Positions 2,877 to 29,555 of a stretch of DNA of 42,615 nucleotides are shown one piece after another; the stretch's first letter is position 1, and every line of letters begins with the position of its first letter. Location of the stretch: positions 1-42,615 of IMG/VR virus record IMGVR_UViG_3300017748_000021. One strand, 5' to 3'. The DNA comes from a virus. The position numbers and the translations under genes are program-made. Under the pieces are notes generated by a model that was not told where the DNA came from, did no database searches, and saw only the letters and a program-made list of their open reading frames with translations.

Positions 2877-3590
2877 ATGAGACATTTGTTAATCCTCTCT
2901 CACGGTGCTTCCGGAACATCGGCAGTGGTAGACCAGTTATTCAATAACAAAAACGTCTTTTTACAATACAACAAAGAACCACTAAACACAAAAGACCCCC
3001 CAAGGAGAAACACTCGCATACTGCACGGCATTCACTGGTATGACGAGCATATTACCGAACTGGTTAATCTTGCGGAGTCCAACGAGCAAAAGCTACTCAT
3101 CCATATAAAACCGATGCACCTCTCTCCGATTTCCGTTTCTATCGCCGAGGCCGTGCAAAAGCTGCACCATCAGTTCGATTTTATACTCATTCTGCGTAAA
3201 AACTACTTGGCCCGAAAATGCAGCGCCGCTTTTAAATTACTCCAGCGCAAGAACAATAGCCCGCAGGCTAAGGTGACGCTAAACATTAACGCAGCCGATT
3301 TTGCCGAAGACGACCGAACCCACCGGGAAATGCTGCGTCTCACGGAGCCCTGCAATCCGTTTTTCATTGATTACGAGCGCGACCTCCACCAAAACACACG
3401 AAAGACAATCGACTCGCTCTGCCACCATTTTGAGTTTTACCACCCGTATCAATACCGGCCGATGAAGCCCAATTACCACGCCAAGAAAAATCAGTGGTCA
3501 GCGATTAAGTTGCAAGATAAGATTGCAAACTTTGACGAAATCCGGGACAAACTTTCCGGCACGAAATACGAATGGATGCTGCACGAGTAA
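2877..3590 (+). CDS. Sulfotransferase-like protein
   Basis: The 237-residue protein opens with a strand and a P-loop-like turn, LILSHGASGTSAVVDQL, which matches the 5'-phosphosulfate loop of PAPS-dependent sulfotransferases except that the usual Arg is Ala. About 105 residues in, FILILRKNYLARKCSAAF matches the 3'-phosphate loop (hydrophobic strand, Arg, then Ser). By family knowledge it would transfer sulfate from PAPS to a sugar or other hydroxyl; the acceptor is unknown. It is the only plus-strand gene between the control region and the early operon, and it converges on the HNH-like gene with an 18-base gap. It stands alone like a moron. Two further sulfotransferase-like domains occur in this window. 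A divergent P-loop protein of another kind is the main alternative. Confidence 0.55.
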   Translation: MRHLLILSHGASGTSAVVDQLFNNKNVFLQYNKEPLNTKDPPRRNTRILHGIHWYDEHITELVNLAESNEQKLLIHIKPMHLSPISVSIAEAVQKLHHQFDFILILRKNYLARKCSAAFKLLQRKNNSPQAKVTLNINAADFAEDDRTHREMLRLTEPCNPFFIDYERDLHQNTRKTIDSLCHHFEFYHPYQYRPMKPNYHAKKNQWSAIKLQDKIANFDEIRDKLSGTKYEWMLHE

Positions 3591-4225: not shown

Positions 4226-4494
4226 TTTGGTTTAATGGGGTTATGCAGCGGGCAGTTTTGCGAAATTACGTAAGCGTTTGGAACCTCAGCATATCCTTCA
4301 CCCGAATGGTTGTCTTCTTTGGGGCAGGTGCAACCTAGTTCTATAGCCTCCGGAGAGCCCGGATGGTTGGCTTGAGCGACTTTAGCTCTTCCCATTTCTT
4401 TAGTTCTATAAACTTCGTCTAGTAGCATGTCTTCCCAGTGTGGGTGCCCTGCGTAGCCTGTTTGAAATTTAAGGATAAGTTTTTCTTCAGTCAT
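4222..4494 (-). CDS. Small Cys-rich phage protein, CTCP...CPLH type
   Basis: A 90-residue hypothetical protein. The C-terminal half has the pattern AIELGCTCP, then a DN-containing loop with glycines, VISQNCPLH. I recognise this as a recurring small phage protein that looks like a compact zinc-binding motif (Cys, Cys, Cys, His). Function unknown. It starts with an ATGA overlap on the upstream sulfotransferase-like gene and ends in another overlap, so it belongs to one translationally coupled cluster. Confidence 0.55.
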   Translation of the reverse strand: MTEEKLILKFQTGYAGHPHWEDMLLDEVYRTKEMGRAKVAQANHPGSPEAIELGCTCPKEDNHSGEGYAEVPNAYVISQNCPLHNPIKPK

Positions 4495-5090
4495 CTCCGA
4501 ACTTGGTTAAACCATGTGCCCCACACGTCAGCTAAATCAGCGTGGCGAATTAAACTCTTTTCAATACTCAACCAATCGTGAGCCGTCAACTTTTCTAAAT
4601 ACTTTTGTTTTCTGTAGTAGTCTGCATCAAAAGTATCCAGCTTGTTTTCGTTGCCGCCCATGTCCATTTTGCCGCTGGGCAGGTTTATGGGGCCCGAAAC
4701 TAGCCCCTCCTCCGTCAGACGCTCCCAGAACCTAAGAGGGTTCGTAACTGCCTGCATAGTGTCTATGACGCTACATTCACCTACACCCCGAAACTTTGAC
4801 CACCAGAAGTAACTGGCGTCCCTAGCGGCCCAGTCTTCTATGGCAGTCCACCGCTCTTCGGAAATTTTGGCGCTTTCTATAAAGTCGTCATGCTTGCGGT
4901 TACTAACCAACCAAGCGGCCGGGTTTCTCATGCAGATTACGACGTAGTCTACTTTGCCGAGGATGTTTTCTGGGATTCGACCGTGTTTCCACCCGTGGCT
5001 GTTAACGTGGACTTCGTGACCCGCGACTTGCAAGATGTATTCCATCAAGTTGGTGCCGGTTCTTTTTTGGCCGTAAAGTTTAATTTTCAT
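4491..5090 (-). CDS. Second sulfotransferase-like protein
   Basis: 199 residues. The ATG at 5090 is chosen because it overlaps the upstream stop as ATGA and opens directly on the fold: KIKLYGQKRTGTNLMEYIL, a P-loop-like PAPS-binding turn with Arg. Near residue 55 comes VDYVVICMRNPAAWLVSNRK, which resembles the 3'-phosphate-binding strand and helix of sulfotransferases and related kinase-like folds. The remainder is helical and Trp-rich. By analogy it would sulfate a glycan or other acceptor. The alternative is another P-loop transferase. It is embedded among four tiny genes of unknown role, unlike the free-standing copy at 2877. Confidence 0.5.
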   Translation of the reverse strand: MKIKLYGQKRTGTNLMEYILQVAGHEVHVNSHGWKHGRIPENILGKVDYVVICMRNPAAWLVSNRKHDDFIESAKISEERWTAIEDWAARDASYFWWSKFRGVGECSVIDTMQAVTNPLRFWERLTEEGLVSGPINLPSGKMDMGGNENKLDTFDADYYRKQKYLEKLTAHDWLSIEKSLIRHADLADVWGTWFNQVRR

Positions 5091-5344
5091 GCTTTCTCCA
5101 GCAAAGCCCCCGTGCTGTTTTCGTCCCAACCTTGATCCTCGTTGATTTCTGCGGTTGTCTTCTTACTGAATTTAAGTTCACCACAATAGATAAAATCATC
5201 ATCAACTGCCGTAACTAATATCTCTGTTGAAACGATGCCCCCAAAAACTCGCCGCACGAGGTCTCCCACTTTAGCAGTTTTAATCCACTCTAGCGTGTGG
5301 GGACTTATTTCTACTTCTGCTGTAGTTTTCTCTTTTTTATTCAT
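5087..5344 (-). CDS. Small conserved protein with VGDLVRR...GWDENSTG domain
   Basis: 85 residues, starting at the ATG that overlaps the upstream stop (5341-5344). The motif order VGDLVRRVFGG, LVTAVDDDFIYCG, then EINEDQGW corresponds to a small beta-rich domain that I recall from hypothetical proteins of Planctomycetes, Verrucomicrobia and relatives. No function is known to me. It has ATGA overlaps at both ends, consistent with co-translation with the sulfotransferase-like gene downstream. Confidence 0.5.
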   Translation of the reverse strand: MNKKEKTTAEVEISPHTLEWIKTAKVGDLVRRVFGGIVSTEILVTAVDDDFIYCGELKFSKKTTAEINEDQGWDENSTGALLEKA

Positions 5345-22602: not shown

Positions 22603-23823
22603 ATGGACGACGCTACGGCTGGCACTGCACCCGATACCACAGACCGCTTGGATGAACTTATTGGTAGTTCGTATCCCGAGGGTTCCGATGTAACTCAGAA
22701 ACTAGACGGGCCCGCACCCAATACCACTTCTGAGCCCACCACTCCCGAAAAAGAGGCAATCTCTGAAACCTCTAATGACGAAGCTAAACCTTCTGGAGAG
22801 GGTAGTGAAAGTGAGACTTCTCCTACCGAAACTCAAAAGAGTGAAAACAAGTCTCAGGAAACTGACCAAGACCCCGATGATCTCGACTCCAAGTTTCCTG
22901 ATTTAGAAGGCCCGACATCCCCAAAAGCTCAAAATAAGTGGGCTGAATTACGGGGTGACTTGAAATCTACTCGCAATAGTCTTCGGGATAAAGAAGATCG
23001 AATCGCCGAGTTGGAACTACAGTTAAAAACCTCGGAGGGTTCCAAGGTTGAGCCGGAAACTATTGCAAAGTTGCAATCTCAGCTTAGCGAAAAAGAAAAA
23101 GAGCTTTCAGCATATCGAGTTGAGTCTACAGATTTATACCGCGAGCGGGTTTCTGTGCCTCTAGCCAAAATAGCTGAAGAAGCTGAAAAAATTGGCGGGG
23201 AGTCTTTGGTTTCAGCACTCTCTGAACCCGACCCACGCAAGCGTTCTGAGGCACTTTCTAACGCCGTAGAAGATTTGAACGAGTATGACCGAACCACTGT
23301 TTTTCAGATGGCTCGTGAGTTAGACGGGGTCATCGACCAACAATCAAAGCTGAGAAGTAATGCTGCCGAGGCGATGAAAGAACTTGAGCAGCAGAAAGCT
23401 TTGCAACAGACCCAAGCTCAAATTGAGCAGCAAAAAGAGTATTCGTCCGCAGCTAAAGACGCTTGGGGTGTTTTTGAAAAGAAGTTACCTTTTATGAAAG
23501 GTTCTGATGGTGATTTGCGAGAAGAGTTTAAAGAAGTTATGAAGGAGGGGTTGAATACTAACCTTGTAGAAAAATCTTCTATGATCCAAGCTTACTCTTC
23601 GTTTTCAGGGCTCTTGCTCCCAAAACTGCTAAAAGAAGTATCATCTCTTCGCTCTGAAAACTCAGCTTTGTCCGAAACTATCTCAGAACTGGAAAGCTCT
23701 ACTCCGGGTGGTTCTGGTGGTTCTGGCGGCTCTACCGAGGATAGTTTGGCAGACGATGGGGACGGCGGGTTTGGGGACAGTCTCGAAGCCCGACTCGCTT
23801 CCGGTGACATTACGTGGACATAA
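22603..23823 (+). CDS. Scaffolding protein
   Basis: 406 residues. The first 110 are acidic, Ser/Thr/Glu-rich and unstructured. Long Lys/Glu coiled-coil stretches follow from about RNSLRDKEDRIAELELQL to the Gln-rich EQQKALQQTQAQIEQQ, then a GGSGGSGG linker. The end is the short acidic tail SLEARLASGDITWT. Low complexity, high charge and the position between portal and major capsid are the usual marks of scaffolding proteins. In known examples the C-terminal helix binds the coat protein. The same tail motif recurs in the small protein encoded just after the capsid gene. The ATG at 22603 is chosen over a TTG at 22597. Confidence 0.75.
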   Translation: MDDATAGTAPDTTDRLDELIGSSYPEGSDVTQKLDGPAPNTTSEPTTPEKEAISETSNDEAKPSGEGSESETSPTETQKSENKSQETDQDPDDLDSKFPDLEGPTSPKAQNKWAELRGDLKSTRNSLRDKEDRIAELELQLKTSEGSKVEPETIAKLQSQLSEKEKELSAYRVESTDLYRERVSVPLAKIAEEAEKIGGESLVSALSEPDPRKRSEALSNAVEDLNEYDRTTVFQMARELDGVIDQQSKLRSNAAEAMKELEQQKALQQTQAQIEQQKEYSSAAKDAWGVFEKKLPFMKGSDGDLREEFKEVMKEGLNTNLVEKSSMIQAYSSFSGLLLPKLLKEVSSLRSENSALSETISELESSTPGGSGGSGGSTEDSLADDGDGGFGDSLEARLASGDITWT

Positions 23824-23827
23824 ATAA

Positions 23828-23869
23828 TTTTATAGGCTGGCTACTCCAACTCCCTGTTGGCCTATAAAA
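23828..23869 (+). terminator. Hairpin directly after the scaffold gene
   Basis: TTTTATAGGC at 23828-23837 and GCCTATAAAA at 23860-23869 form a perfect 10-bp inverted repeat starting five bases after the stop codon. It could act as a bidirectional terminator or an RNA-stabilising hairpin. Confidence 0.5.
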
Positions 23870-23897
23870 CTTGACATAAATAAGACTAGGTGAAGCG

Positions 23898-23940
23898 GGG
23901 AGGCTCTTGGATTTATTTCTGAGAGTCTCCCTCTTTTTTT
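23898..23940 (+). terminator. Intrinsic terminator after scaffold
   Basis: GGGAGGCTCT (23898-23907) pairs with AGAGTCTCCC (23922-23931) with one G-U pair, followed by CTC and seven T. This is a strong factor-independent terminator that closes the terminase-to-scaffold transcript. Confidence 0.85.
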
Positions 23941-23941
23941 G

Positions 23942-24169
23942 TTGCAAGTTGCAAAAATTTAGGTAAGATTATTATTACGGTTCCGAAACCGGAAAAAATT
24001 CGGCAGACGCTCGATCTGTTAACTCGTTCTTCTCATACATCTTATGCGCTATTTGACAGCTTTACGAAGTTGTCGTTGGTCTTCTCTGGGCGCAAGAGAA
24101 GCAACGAAAGCACTTGCTTGCAATGTGCTACTAAAACCTTTGTTGCGATTAACAAAGATTTTTTTTTAA
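23942..24169 (+). ncRNA. Structured RNA between scaffold and capsid genes (candidate sRNA or attenuating leader)
   Basis: After the scaffold terminator a weak promoter (TTGCAA at 23942, TAAGAT at 23964-23969) precedes about 190 bases with three successive hairpins. The first is TCGTTG-gt-CTTCTCT / AGAGAAG-CAACGA (24073-24107). The second is AGCAC...GTGCT with an inner TTG/CAA stem (24109-24129). The third is CTTTGTT/AACAAAG (24138-24157), followed by nine T. This is the layout of a stable small RNA with its own terminator. A 41-codon frame (ATG at 24044, stop at 24167) runs through all three hairpins, so a leader-peptide attenuator is an alternative. No known RNA family was recognised. Confidence 0.4.
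24138..24167 (+). terminator. Intrinsic terminator just upstream of the capsid gene
   Basis: CTTTGTT (24138-24144), loop GCGATT, AACAAAG (24151-24157), then A and nine T (24159-24167). It lies 24 bases before the capsid ATG and would block read-through from upstream. Confidence 0.75.
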
Positions 24170-24177
24170 CTTAAAAT
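24149..24177 (+). promoter_or_regulatory. Capsid gene promoter, TTAACA-17-TAAAAT
   Basis: TTAACA (24149-24154) and TAAAAT (24172-24177), each 5/6 to consensus with the ideal 17-base spacing, lie inside the terminator hairpin and T-tract. Predicted initiation near 24184 leaves a leader of about eight bases before the ATG at 24192. Confidence 0.6.
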
Positions 24178-24191
24178 AGAATACTGCCACC

Positions 24192-25355
24192 ATGGCTTAC
24201 GACATTAACGACCTACTACAACAGGAAAGTGGACGTATTGGGCCCGACATCTTTGATAAGAGTCTCAATACCTCCCCTTGGCTCAAGCTCGTGCAACGCG
24301 ACACTTGGCCAGACGAAATGGGTCAGAGCATCCAAGTTCTGACTTACGAGAGATCCCTACCCGGAACCACCCCTTCGTGGTCTACTGTAGACTACACGAC
24401 CGGAACTGGAGCGGGCTCTTGCACCCCAACCGCTGAGGAAGTGTCTTTTGCGAGCACTCTCCGCACCTATAACCTTCAGCAGACTGCGCTTGAGTCGCCT
24501 CCGATCTGTGTGAATGACCTTCGCTTCACTACCATGCGTCGTGAGCAGCTTCGTTCATGCTTTGACGTGCTTCAACAGAATGCCCGCTACTTGTGGCAGG
24601 AGCGTTATCGCGACGAGTATATTCGTCTCGCTGAGCATAAGGTTATCGTCAAGACTGGTTTCCCAGAGAGCGATTCTGCTTTCCCCGCCCAAATTCCTAC
24701 CTCCAAGCTTACTCAGGGAACCCTCGACAGGTTCTATCTGAAGTTGCTTCGCGACGGTGCTGGCAATAACGCTGTCGACCGTGTTAACGGCCGTCCGCAG
24801 TTTATCGCTATTATGGGCCCCGAAACTCAGGAGAATATCCTCAAAGAAATTGGAGATATTCGCGATGACTTCCGTTACTCTGATCGAGTAGGGGAGCTTC
24901 TCGGGCCATTGGGTGTAACTCGTCCTTACAAGGGCTTTTTCCACCTGATCGACGACTTCCCACCCCGTTATAACTTTGACGGAACAAATTGGGTAAGAGT
25001 TGAGCCTTACATCGCATCTTCTGCCTCTAAGGGCCAGAAGTATGACATCAACCCAGCTTGGGAAACCGCCGCTTACGAAGATACCATTCTCTTCCACGAG
25101 GATGTTTATACATCTATGGTTCCTAAGCCAATTACTTCTCCCGGTGGAAACACTACGTTCGAAGCCGTGAAGTATATGGGTGATTGGAAGTGGTTAAACG
25201 AGTTCGACAAGACCGAGAACCCTGACAAGACTATCGGATACTTCCGAGGAATCTTCTCTGACGGTTCTAAGCCTATTCATCCAGAATTTGGCTACGTTCT
25301 TCGCCACCTCCGTTGTGCGCCTGAGCTTAATTTGGGTGCGTGCGCTGCCACGTAA
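24192..25355 (+). CDS. Major capsid protein
   Basis: 387 residues, the usual size for an HK97-fold coat without a large added domain. It is identified by its place after scaffold, its own strong promoter with terminators before and after, and the codon usage. That usage is visibly more selective than in neighbouring genes (many CGC/CGT, CTC/CTT, AAG and GAG codons), as expected for the most expressed protein. Sequence hints include an N-terminal DIFDKSLNTSPWL arm, a long helix REQLRSCFDVLQQNARYLWQ in the spine-helix position and FIAIMGPETQENILKEIG. I cannot confirm the fold from motif alone. Confidence 0.8.
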   Translation: MAYDINDLLQQESGRIGPDIFDKSLNTSPWLKLVQRDTWPDEMGQSIQVLTYERSLPGTTPSWSTVDYTTGTGAGSCTPTAEEVSFASTLRTYNLQQTALESPPICVNDLRFTTMRREQLRSCFDVLQQNARYLWQERYRDEYIRLAEHKVIVKTGFPESDSAFPAQIPTSKLTQGTLDRFYLKLLRDGAGNNAVDRVNGRPQFIAIMGPETQENILKEIGDIRDDFRYSDRVGELLGPLGVTRPYKGFFHLIDDFPPRYNFDGTNWVRVEPYIASSASKGQKYDINPAWETAAYEDTILFHEDVYTSMVPKPITSPGGNTTFEAVKYMGDWKWLNEFDKTENPDKTIGYFRGIFSDGSKPIHPEFGYVLRHLRCAPELNLGACAAT

Positions 25356-25377: not shown

Positions 25378-25416
25378 AGCCGGGGCGTCTGAGAATAAAT
25401 CTTAGATTCCCCGGCT
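25378..25416 (+). terminator. Hairpin terminator after the capsid gene
   Basis: AGCCGGGG (25378-25385) and CCCCGGCT (25409-25416) enclose a second stem TCTGAG/CTTAGA. The T-tract is short (TTTA), so it may be a partial terminator that sets the high capsid-to-tail expression ratio. Confidence 0.6.
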
Positions 25417-25743: not shown

Positions 25744-27990
25744 ATGGCGCGAGTTCTTTATTTACAAGCTGACTCAGGCAAAAACTCGGGTCAGTTCCTA
25801 ATCGACGCAAAAACTCGCGAGAGACCTGTAATTTCTGACGGAACCAGCCTTACGGTTCGATTAGGGTCTTTTCATTTTGATACCCCCACGTCTCTTGCAA
25901 ACCTTACTCAGCTTAACTTTGAGTTTCGAAAGACTTCTTCGGATTCAGAAACTCCGTTCCTCTCCCGAAATGTAACTCTACCGATTGCAAACGAGGAAAT
26001 TTTACTTTCTGCTTGGAACTCTAAATCTTCGTGGAATGCTGAGATTGATTTTACCTCAGAAGAATTAAACTACGACATACCCGACGAGTCTGACCACGCA
26101 GACCTCTTCTTGATTATTACTGCGACTTTCAGCAGTGGGTCGCAAAACACTTTAGGTGCGGGAACTATTAGGATCGCCGCCACTAACGACTCAGGGGCGT
26201 CCGAGAGTTCGTTTATGTTAAAGTCAGTTTATGACGCCAACAACGATGGGATTGTTGACCAAGCAGCCGTAGCCGATTCAGTAGACTGGTCGAACATCTC
26301 AAGTAAGCCCACCTCGTTTACTCCAAGCACTCACAGCCACACAAAGTCCGAAATTTCTAACCTTGCATCCTTTTCCGGTGCTGGGGAAGCTAATCTTGTC
26401 CCCGACCCCGTTTCAGAAACAGGTAAGTTTTTGCAAGATGACGGAACTTGGGTAGACCTCACAGTTAGTTGGTCAGACATTACAGGAGTTCCTTCCGACT
26501 TTATTCCCGGAGACCACAGCCACACAAAGTCGGAAATCACCGACCTTGCAGCTTTTTCTGGTGCCGGAGAAGCTAATCTTGTCCCCGACCCTTCAACCGA
26601 AATTGGAAAGTTTCTCCGAGACGACGGTTCTTGGGCAACTGAATCTGATTTCTCCGGTAACGGGGCTTCTGGGCTTGTCCCAAACCCGGGTTCTGAAACT
26701 GGAAAGTTTCTCCGAGACGATGGAACTTGGGCAACTGCGTCAGGCAGTGTCGCTTGGGCCGACATTACCGGCAAGCCTTCTTCGTTTACTCCCAGTAGCC
26801 ACACTCATTTGCGAGCAGAGATCACTGATCTTTACAACTTTTCTGGTGCAGGTAGCGTCGGCCTTGTTCCCGATCCGACCGTAGCTTCCGGAAAGTTTTT
26901 GCAAGACGACGGTTCTTGGAGTTCTCCAAACATTCCGTCTATTCCTAATTTCAGTGGCGCTGGCTATGAGGGCCTCGTTCCTGACCCTGTCACCGAAACG
27001 GGGGGCTTCTTAAAAGACGACGGTTCTTGGGAGATACCCTCCGTTAGCAGCAGTGGAGCCGTTACCGCGAGCGCCGCAACGGAGACAAAGCAATTTGATA
27101 ACTCCACAGGGCTAAATCTTGGAGCTACCGTAGACAAAAGCATTGGGGAACTCCGAGTTTTAAACCGCGACCCTGCGGTTACTTCTGAAGAAGAACCTCA
27201 TGCTGCACAGATTTTCGAATTAATCAACGCTGTTGTAAATTCTAGGGATGTTACCGACATTACCTCAAACGAGTTTACTTTATCTGCGGGACAGGAATTT
27301 AATACTGGACAATGCGTTGTTATCCGTTCTACCGGAGACATTCCTACGGGCGTAGTTCAGAACCAACTTTACTGGATTTCTAGTGGTGCTTCTAGCTTCA
27401 AACTCCACAACAACTACGCCGACGCACTCAGCGACGACTCTCCCGTTACCGTAACAGACTCTGGAACCGGAACAGTTACGTTTTATCAAGCTAATTATCC
27501 TTACGAGGTCATTCCAAATGATTATGACCCCACCACAAACGCTAGAATTTGGCAAAAACGAGAACTCGACCCTTTGGTAACTCTTTCTTACGAAGGCGAA
27601 GCTCCGGATGTCGAGCTAGTTTCAGCCGGTTATTACGACCTCGGAATCGTTCCCTACCCGATTGTCGTAGAGAACGTCCTAATACACTCACTTAACGACA
27701 ACGGCGGAAACGAACCCTACCTAGATTTAGAGGTAAACGGTTCTTCGGGGTTGAAAGACGGTGCATCTATATTAGGTAATACCGGAGGCACTAGCAGCAG
27801 CGGGTCAAGCCCTTGGTATGCCGTGTATTCAGTAAAGAACGCATTTAACAGTGAACTCCGATTGTTAAGCGTCGGAGATACTTTAAGCCTCCATTGCGAA
27901 GACGACGGGTCTGCGTCGGGCTCAGCTTCGTCGGGCTGTGGGGTTACTATTACTGGGCGGCCGCTTAGAAAAGTTCATACTAACTTTTAA
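25744..27990 (+). CDS. Tail fibre / receptor-binding protein with HxH and GKFL-DDGSW repeats
   Basis: 748 residues. Residues 1-170 look like a BppU-type baseplate- or tail-binding beta domain. From about 190 to 430 comes a shaft of repeats of two alternating kinds. One is W-x-DI-x-KP-x-SF-x-PSSHTH followed by AEI-x-DL (HSH, HSH, HTH: the HxH metal-binding triplets of trimeric fibres). The other is FSGAG-x5-LVPDP-x-ETGKFLRDDGTW. A C-terminal beta-rich region with Gly/Ser runs probably forms the receptor-binding tip. It should be trimeric and determine host attachment. Its stop overlaps the start of the glycosyltransferase-sulfotransferase fusion by one base, so the two are translated together. 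Confidence 0.75.
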   Translation: MARVLYLQADSGKNSGQFLIDAKTRERPVISDGTSLTVRLGSFHFDTPTSLANLTQLNFEFRKTSSDSETPFLSRNVTLPIANEEILLSAWNSKSSWNAEIDFTSEELNYDIPDESDHADLFLIITATFSSGSQNTLGAGTIRIAATNDSGASESSFMLKSVYDANNDGIVDQAAVADSVDWSNISSKPTSFTPSTHSHTKSEISNLASFSGAGEANLVPDPVSETGKFLQDDGTWVDLTVSWSDITGVPSDFIPGDHSHTKSEITDLAAFSGAGEANLVPDPSTEIGKFLRDDGSWATESDFSGNGASGLVPNPGSETGKFLRDDGTWATASGSVAWADITGKPSSFTPSSHTHLRAEITDLYNFSGAGSVGLVPDPTVASGKFLQDDGSWSSPNIPSIPNFSGAGYEGLVPDPVTETGGFLKDDGSWEIPSVSSSGAVTASAATETKQFDNSTGLNLGATVDKSIGELRVLNRDPAVTSEEEPHAAQIFELINAVVNSRDVTDITSNEFTLSAGQEFNTGQCVVIRSTGDIPTGVVQNQLYWISSGASSFKLHNNYADALSDDSPVTVTDSGTGTVTFYQANYPYEVIPNDYDPTTNARIWQKRELDPLVTLSYEGEAPDVELVSAGYYDLGIVPYPIVVENVLIHSLNDNGGNEPYLDLEVNGSSGLKDGASILGNTGGTSSSGSSPWYAVYSVKNAFNSELRLLSVGDTLSLHCEDDGSASGSASSGCGVTITGRPLRKVHTNF
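26290..27035 (+). repeat. Tandem fibre-shaft repeats (protein and DNA level)
   Basis: The shaft coding region repeats GGAAAGTTTCTCCGAGACGA-like and TCYGGTGCYGGAGAAGCTAA-like segments several times, in step with the protein repeats of about 25-40 residues. Near-identical neighbouring copies suggest recent duplication or recombination. Confidence 0.65.
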
Positions 27991-29555
27991 TGAGCCGACG
28001 CAGAAATTGCTCTGAGTCACGCAACTCAAAAGCTAATCGTAGCCCCGTTCTCGCTACGGCACCCGACCCTTTAAAGCGAGAAGATATTAAGTTTTCTGGT
28101 TGTGGTTGGGGGCAAGCTTTGAATAAAGAACCTCCGTTTGTAGTGGTGATTCCGTTTATGAACCGGGATTTGCAAGCTACCCACCGAGTCTCTGCCTTAA
28201 AAACAATAGTTAAAAAGTTTCAAGAAGCTCATGTAGAGACAATTTTAGTTACCCAAGGAGAGAGTCCAAAAGATTTCAACACTGGGGGTAGGCTTTATGT
28301 TTGCGAACAATACGATTTAGGTGATTCCGACTTTTACAAATCTACTTTAATTAATCGAGGCATTGAATTTGCGCTAGAACATTTTCCAAATTGGAAGTGG
28401 CTCTGGCAGTCCGATGCAGATATTCTGTTTCCTGTGTCCGAGGCAATAAAAAGTGCCGAAGCTTGCCCCCAAGACACACACGTCATAGTCCCGTGGAAAA
28501 ATTGGTTGCGATTAAATCAAGCTCAGACGGCACTCGTTTCCGATTTTCCCCAAAACTCGCGAGTATTTGAAGACTCGTCCCCAAGAAATATCAATGTCGG
28601 GGCCGGTGCTGGGGGTATAATGTTGCAACGCAGTATCCTAGAAGAAGGCTTTAGGTGGGATGACACCTTCGTAAATTGGGGGTGGGAAGACTCAGACGCC
28701 GCTAAGCGGGCTATATCTTGGGGTTCTAAGGGTTGCAAAGTTCATCGAGGCAAAACTTCGGGCCTTCATTTGTGGCACGAAAACGACCGCGTAGTTCAAG
28801 TGTCTAATGGAGAACATTATTTCCAAGGTGAAATACCTAAAAATAATATGTCCGGTGTTTTGCTAGAAGCTAAAACTAAGTTTCTAGTAGTAGCGACGGG
28901 TCGGAGCGGTGGTCACTTGCTTGGACGTTCTCTGAGTTTACACCCTCAAGTTCATTGCGATAATAAAGAGCCTTTCATTCACTCTAAACCCCAACCCCCC
29001 ATTCAAGAGCAAAATGTTCTTATGCGAAACTGGGCATTTCGCGGGCCACTTTTTAGTGAAAAGCCTGTAGTGGGGATGAGATTGCAATACGTGATAAATA
29101 ATCCTAGTTTTAAATTTTCCTTCAAAAGTTTTTTGCAGTGGGCTGATAAGCTAGAGTTTAATTTTATTCATTTAATTAGGAGAAACTCTGTAGAGCAGGC
29201 AATTAGTCATGCACTGGCTACGCGGAGCGGGCGGTGGATTCACAACAAATATGATGATACCAAAATTTACTTACCCCCGAATGAATTTAAAGGTTTTTAT
29301 CGTTGGGTTGAGTCCAAAAAATCGGAATTTACCCCCTTGCTGAACAACTACGGAGCACACGTAGTTTATTACGAAGATTTATGTGAAAACTGGGACTCAG
29401 AAATGGGCAAAATTTTTAAGTCTTTAGGCGTTAAGCCTCTTGAGGTAGAGCAAGCTGTCCCAAAACAAACTAAAAAACCTCATCGAGAATATATCTCTAA
29501 TTGGTCTGAAATAGAGGAAATAGCAAAATCTTTTAAATCGGAAACGCTCAGTTAG
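27990..29555 (+). CDS. Fusion of GT7-like glycosyltransferase and sulfotransferase
   Basis: 521 residues in two domains. Residues 45-270 are a GT-A glycosyltransferase of the GT7/galactosyltransferase C-terminal type: PFVVVIPFMNRD start, WLWQSDADILFP with the DxD metal motif, NVGAGAGGIMLQ, and the signature VNWGWEDSDAAKRA. Residues 292-520 are a sulfotransferase: KFLVVATGRSGGHLLGRSL (5'-phosphosulfate loop), then FIHLIRRNSVEQAISHA (3'-phosphate loop with Arg and Ser). One polypeptide could therefore add a sugar and sulfate a glycan. It is translationally coupled (TAATG) to the tail-fibre gene and precedes the holin. That points to late expression and possible modification of virion or released-cell glycans. 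Confidence 0.8.
   Translation: MSRRRNCSESRNSKANRSPVLATAPDPLKREDIKFSGCGWGQALNKEPPFVVVIPFMNRDLQATHRVSALKTIVKKFQEAHVETILVTQGESPKDFNTGGRLYVCEQYDLGDSDFYKSTLINRGIEFALEHFPNWKWLWQSDADILFPVSEAIKSAEACPQDTHVIVPWKNWLRLNQAQTALVSDFPQNSRVFEDSSPRNINVGAGAGGIMLQRSILEEGFRWDDTFVNWGWEDSDAAKRAISWGSKGCKVHRGKTSGLHLWHENDRVVQVSNGEHYFQGEIPKNNMSGVLLEAKTKFLVVATGRSGGHLLGRSLSLHPQVHCDNKEPFIHSKPQPPIQEQNVLMRNWAFRGPLFSEKPVVGMRLQYVINNPSFKFSFKSFLQWADKLEFNFIHLIRRNSVEQAISHALATRSGRWIHNKYDDTKIYLPPNEFKGFYRWVESKKSEFTPLLNNYGAHVVYYEDLCENWDSEMGKIFKSLGVKPLEVEQAVPKQTKKPHREYISNWSEIEEIAKSFKSETLS

Follow-up and report, generated by a model that had tools for sequence, protein, structure and literature searches.

The DNA directly in front of the major capsid protein gene of an uncultured virus encodes two predicted RNA pseudoknots, PK1 and PK2, and covariation among related loci shows that both are conserved immediately 5′ of the capsid gene in a phage lineage without cultured members. 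The region is rather likely to serve as the 5′ untranslated leader of a capsid mRNA that is transcribed on its own, with a role in its stability and/or its translation, a reading drawn from comparison of sequences. The window, that is, the whole stretch of DNA analysed here, is a 42.6-kb virus record, in which the following features bear on this reading.

23897–23940, + strand: intrinsic terminator after the upstream (putative scaffold) gene; 15 pairs by scan, T7 tail, −25 kcal/mol
23942–23969, + strand: putative promoter; −35 TTGCAA at 23942–23947, 16-nt spacer, −10 TAAGAT at 23964–23969
23949–23954 with 23970–23975, + strand: alternative putative promoter, TTGCAA with TATTAT
23978–24003, + strand: PK1, an H-type pseudoknot near the inferred 5′ end, with the same topology in relatives
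24025–24034, + strand: CGTTCTTCTC, second copy of a PK2 stem strand, with an alternative nested pairing to 24096–24106
24045–24101, + strand: PK2, a loop/upstream-strand pseudoknot, from a descriptor scan, shuffles and relatives
24109–24129, + strand: hairpin AGCACUUGC-uu-GCAAuGUGCU 3′ of PK2, predicted in the fold
24138–24167, + strand: weak A+U-rich hairpin with T9, either a weak terminator or a U-rich ribosome entry site; −6.2 kcal/mol
24192–25355, + strand: major capsid protein gene by predicted structure; 387 aa, no Shine-Dalgarno sequence
25378–25416, + strand: strong hairpin immediately following the stop codon of the capsid gene; −27 kcal/mol

The window encodes DNA polymerase A and a tyrosine-type integrase, and its gene order is as expected for terminase, portal, scaffold and capsid, the first three labels being assigned from order and size only. 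Searches of Pfam and PHROGs gave no name for the capsid, portal, terminase or scaffold proteins, and sequence comparison of the product of 24192–25355 with Pfam, PHROGs and PDB gave no match. Its AlphaFold2 model reached a pLDDT of 76 with a 43-sequence alignment (a model from 10 sequences was poor, pLDDT 41). The best PDB matches of this model are the capsid proteins of phage N4 and its relatives (E 6.8e-12, TM-score 0.53), and its matches in BFVD are also capsid proteins (E 2.8e-13). By its predicted structure, the product is a capsid protein with an HK97/N4-like fold, and the label of capsid gene is right. The region had been placed by the initial annotation between scaffold and capsid genes; the capsid half of that placement holds on the predicted fold, and the scaffold role follows from gene order only. 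No relative was found among isolate phages searched with capsid, portal and terminase, and none among genome contigs searched for capsid relatives. A portal search of genome contigs returned two contigs of metagenome-assembled genomes, from bins of Candidatus Falkowbacteria and Acidimicrobiaceae; the contigs L174 and L175, binned under these names, carry portal and capsid relatives. These bin labels may reflect contamination, and as they conflict no host is claimed. Elsewhere in the window, the proteins of 2877–3590, 4491–5129 and 27990–29555 resemble, by eye, relatives of sulfotransferases or glycosyltransferases.

Two scans of IMG/VR yielded 29 and 75 partly overlapping loci with homologous capsid genes. 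The relatives amount to dozens of metagenomic loci, and their capsid proteins show roughly 35–60% identity. In these loci, the stretch from the upstream gene to the capsid gene recurs as a leader of about 150–330 nt, a few being longer, apparently from extra genes. Nearly all leaders inspected carry a TTGACA-like promoter, then PK1 and then PK2, and both pseudoknots covary extensively. Many loci are near-duplicates, so that the counts given here are of non-independent events. In a table compiled by hand of 34 different PK2 elements, that of the window among them and part of them assigned by hand, standard pairs fill 98% of cells of the loop helix, 92% of the inserted hairpin and 98% of the stem, with 17, 77 and 53 two-sided changes, respectively. 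None of 1000 column shuffles came up to these pairing levels; the alignment favours paired cells in the inserted hairpin and in the stem, and its anchor for the loop helix was position. Unedited MAFFT alignments gave the same picture. The covariation score was 0.396 against 0.178 after shuffling in A6 (22 sequences, window excluded), where all seven stem pairs change on both sides, 0.245 against 0.128 in A5, and 0.337 against 0.185 in A4. Each score was reached by 0/500 shuffles, and sliding the partners by one to three columns destroyed the signal. Compensatory changes in homologous regions, for which a check had been proposed, are thus abundant in the hand table, in all three MAFFT alignments and in PK1.

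In 13 of 22 records, a covariance model, R1, picks out a single confident copy of the element per genome, always in leader position; its other matches in the 22 records are at chance level. Likewise, all genuine motif matches in a pattern scan of IMG/VR lie at capsid loci, one of them, L110, at a contig end. Candidates for the RNA away from the capsid gene were rejected, being coding-sequence coincidences without the stem or chance-level model matches only. The most distant capsid relatives (L092, 2540–2958; L175, 11745–12340) carry other leader motifs, not PK2, and these appear to be repeated (ggttgctctagcc...tagttctag).

PK1 of the window reads CGGU-u-CCGAA-ACCG-gaaaaaa-UUCGG, in which S1 pairs CGGU (23978–23981) with ACCG (23988–23991), and S2 pairs CCGAA (23983–23987) with UUCGG (23999–24003) across an A-rich loop (23992–23998). 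On its own it is not significant, as 6% of shuffles do as well (p about 0.06), and the call leans on relatives. Among 23 leaders assigned by hand, the PK1 topology has 210 standard pairs out of 217, built from 9 distinct S1 and 20 distinct S2 types. Examples are GUUC-g-UUGAUA-ua-GAAC-uaaaac-UAUCAA in L007 (the same in L009 with UUGGUA/UACCAA), GGAA-cc-ACAGA-UUCC-guaauu-UCUGU in L018, AGGC-g-GUCUGA-GCCU-uaa-UCAGAC in L004, and CGGU-CUGGA-u-ACCG-cuaaaua-UUCAG in L042, the last of which resembles PK1 of the window.

In PK2 of the window, the upstream strand UGCGCU (24045–24050) pairs with the loop GGGCGCA (24088–24094), which is closed by the stem CTTCTCT (24081–24087)/AGAGAAG (24095–24101), and a hairpin is inserted at 24054–24075, which is borne out (−8.9 kcal/mol). 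The usual family form is GAGCU(U)AAAA, inserted hairpin, stem, U GGCUC, stem, with GAGCU pairing to the loop GGCUC; the pairing loop of the family has 6–8 nt. Inside A6 the loop helix hardly changes, and most of its variation is between groups, where it occurs as GAGCU/GGCUC, GAGCC/GGCUC, GAGCG/CGCUC and GGCAU/AUGCC, and as GCGCU/GGCGC in the window, which is one compensatory change from GAGCU/GGCUC. The group of L056 and L070 has a topologically similar UGGGGC with GCCCUA or GCCCCA. In most leaders, GAGCU(U)AAAA and UGGCUC are conserved in sequence beyond the needs of pairing. The UAAAA linker after the upstream strand is absent from L018, L053, L078 and the window (AUUUGAC instead), so that it is common rather than defining for the family. 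Additionally, a covarying hairpin occupies the place of 24109–24129 in two relative groups.

In the window, a strong terminator precedes the putative promoter of the leader. U-tract terminators also stand directly before the promoter in L005, L022, L011, L014, L040 and L089, giving 7 of the 22 loci inspected with the window included, and with a terminator there the capsid gene would form a transcription unit by itself. A TTGAC pentamer occupies the promoter place near the leader start in 35 of 44 leaders. The putative promoter of the window is weak (8–9 of 12 consensus matches) and not significant alone, and transcription would start at about 23976. Between the upstream gene and the first terminator there is an inverted repeat at 23828–23869, TTTTATAGGC...GCCTATAAAA, and an 11-base direct repeat, GACATAAATAA, occurs at 23817 and 23873. 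At the other end of the gene, a hairpin of −18 or lower follows the stop codon in 26 of 28 capsid genes, compared with 17% of 125 other gene ends; these 3′ hairpins are mostly without a T tract and differ in sequence between loci. The bracketing by terminator and 3′ hairpin fits a protected, separately controlled mRNA.

On the leader reading, the terminator at 23897–23940 would stop transcription from upstream, and a dedicated promoter would restart it for the capsid mRNA. The new transcript would carry PK1 first, then PK2, then the capsid gene, and a strong hairpin at its end. The knotted 5′ end and the 3′ hairpin may slow the decay of the late mRNA in greatest demand, and the level of capsid translation would be set, and may be adjusted by feedback, through the leader. 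Shielding of the 5′ end by PK1 is the preferred role, because no extra factor is needed; protein-bound feedback is the main extension, because GAGCU(U)AAAA and UGGCUC are so widely kept as sequence. A Shine-Dalgarno-like 4-mer precedes only 1 of 28 predicted window genes, which makes the T9 tract attractive as a ribosome landing site, and many gene starts in the window are preceded by A/T-rich stretches such as taaaac. The relatives mostly lack Shine-Dalgarno sequences too, with a strong AGGAGG at the capsid gene in several (L006, L007, L018). As the capsid gene has a Shine-Dalgarno sequence in some relatives and lacks it in others, one translation mechanism does not fit all.

By analogy, the closest working parallel is the operator of T4 gene 32, of which the leader is not a member. 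There, a 5′-terminal pseudoknot of about 28 nt and the adjacent UUAAA/UAAA are both needed for autogenous repression by gp32, which binds the pseudoknot and the U/A-rich sequence next to it (PMC535899). The likeness is one of layout, the present leader being known from sequence alone: a 5′-terminal pseudoknot of about 26–30 nt in a phage mRNA leader, with U/A-rich elements next to it in most relatives, stands upstream of an abundantly made phage protein, and the topology stays while the sequence diverges. In contrast, the gene here encodes an HK97/N4-type capsid protein and not a self-repressing single-strand-binding protein, and the present layout has a 3′ hairpin and one more pseudoknot. It is doubtful, although this layout and the sequence conservation beyond pairing in most leaders speak for it, that the capsid protein, or some other protein of the phage, when in excess shuts down capsid translation by binding PK1/PK2. 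Such an operator is at odds with the pairing of PK2, which differs between groups, and with the window, where UAAAA is missing; moreover, we know of no HK97-fold capsid protein that acts as an RNA-binding repressor. Another parallel is the transcription unit of T7 gene 10, which encodes the capsid protein and has its own promoter and leader. As in T7, a capsid gene here appears to have its own promoter and leader for high expression, and unlike in T7 the promoter is sigma-70-like in look and not of the phage-polymerase type. To our knowledge, no pseudoknots occur in the T7 gene 10 leader.

The initial annotation had read the region as enclosed by two intrinsic terminators and had offered a choice between a phage small RNA and a leader controlling capsid synthesis. 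The first terminator is sound, whereas the second, CTTTGTT-gcgatt-AACAAAG-A-T9, has only two G-C pairs and does not hold as a strong one; none of 43 relative leaders scanned has a terminator comparable to it, with only a few weak hairpin/U-rich matches. The T9 tract may be a weak attenuator or a U-rich ribosome landing site. Several points do tell against the leader reading: in the window, the T9 hairpin could end the RNA before the gene, the promoter is sub-consensus, UAAAA is missing and R1 misses the copy, and across relatives the Shine-Dalgarno sequence of the capsid gene is unevenly present. One alternative is a free small RNA of ~190 nt, running from ~23976 to the terminator at 24138–24167 and acting in trans, with the capsid gene served by a separate promoter, TTAACA-N17-TAAAAT, at 24149–24177. 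The hairpin with T9 is present, and this promoter-like site, with 10 of 12 matches, overlaps it. However, the terminator stem is weak and without counterpart in the leaders of relatives, promoter-like sites are no commoner than in shuffles (1 found, 3.4 expected), and the element always adjoins the capsid gene. A small RNA, which rests on a weak terminator special to the window, is unlikely for the family and, less firmly, for the window. The leader reading is the one that gains support, as every confident find of the element by covariance model or motif is immediately 5′ of the capsid gene, and relatives have no credible terminator in between.

The window itself is very probably a divergent member of the capsid-leader double-pseudoknot RNA. 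R1, which was built without it, misses the window copy and gives only chance-level matches elsewhere in the window, and it does recover L018, L174, L110 and L011; membership of the window therefore rests on position and topology. The missing UAAAA also speaks against membership. As for position, the region is flanked by the upstream gene on one side and by a homologous major capsid gene on the other. As for topology, its PK2 is joint top of 31 descriptor matches on both strands of the 42.6 kb, at a level reached by 0.7% of 2000 dinucleotide shuffles, and its score of 32 is attained in these phages by 3 of 119 regions upstream of other genes. Across the family, the leader position beats the 119 other gene-upstream regions with the PK2 descriptor (p 3e-7). 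That the window copy is mere chance, the relatives having the RNA and the window having diverged or lost it, is very unlikely. The R1 miss, the weakness of PK1 alone and an ordinary fold (z −1.8) would agree with chance; a top-ranking PK2 exactly at the expected place, a loop helix one compensatory step from the family form and the likeness of PK1 to that of L042 would not.

On its own, the region has no more than a slight folding advantage over shuffles (z −1.83, 8/200, for 23942–24192). The longer stretch 23824–24192 gives z −4.6, which is probably driven by the first terminator and the inverted repeat upstream of it. The minimum-energy fold misses the likely architecture of PK1 and PK2. The 13-bp bulged hairpin described earlier, CGTTG-gt-CTTCTCT/AGAGAAG-CAACG (24074–24106, −13.4 kcal/mol), does exist and is one PK2 stem, but the minimum-energy fold takes the other 5′ strand, at 24025–24034, in its place. 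The duplicated strand, CGTTCTTCTC (24025–24034) and CGTTGGTCTTCTC (24081–24087), allows two exclusive folds of similar energy: a nested one of −27.4 kcal/mol, and a pseudoknotted one of −22.4, to which the loop pairing adds up to about −8. The duplication is possibly a switch or an accident. A ligand-sensing riboswitch for the capsid gene is most improbable: compact pseudoknots with A-rich loops are generally like small-ligand riboswitch folds and the window can form these two folds, but neither the window nor the relatives match any Rfam riboswitch and the element is found only at a structural gene.

As far as Rfam and the open-access literature show, the RNA family is new and its kind, a structured cis-acting mRNA leader, is known. 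Rfam release 15 gave no match at or above the gathering cut-off in the window or in 21 relative loci, and permissive cut-offs gave chance matches only, which were rejected. In the open-access literature, no capsid-gene pseudoknot leader in tailed phages was found described. The leader resembles the RNA motifs of comparative genomics as presented in the main text of two such studies (PMC2864571, PMC8040213), being of cis-regulatory type and found by covariation in metagenomes and phages; the word 'capsid' is absent from the main text of both.

The capsid protein is among the phage proteins made in greatest amount, and little is known, beyond model phages, of how its amount is kept in proportion to scaffold and portal. 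Tentatively, the present elements may form a new class of phage cis-regulatory RNA, in which a double-pseudoknot leader and a 3′ hairpin bracket the capsid cistron in a lineage with N4-like capsids that otherwise hardly uses Shine-Dalgarno sequences, and in which capsid output would be adjusted by feedback or by mRNA shielding. As a covarying RNA restricted to the capsid gene of a lineage that has no cultured member, the leader is defined and testable, and it would add a structured-RNA family that is absent from Rfam.
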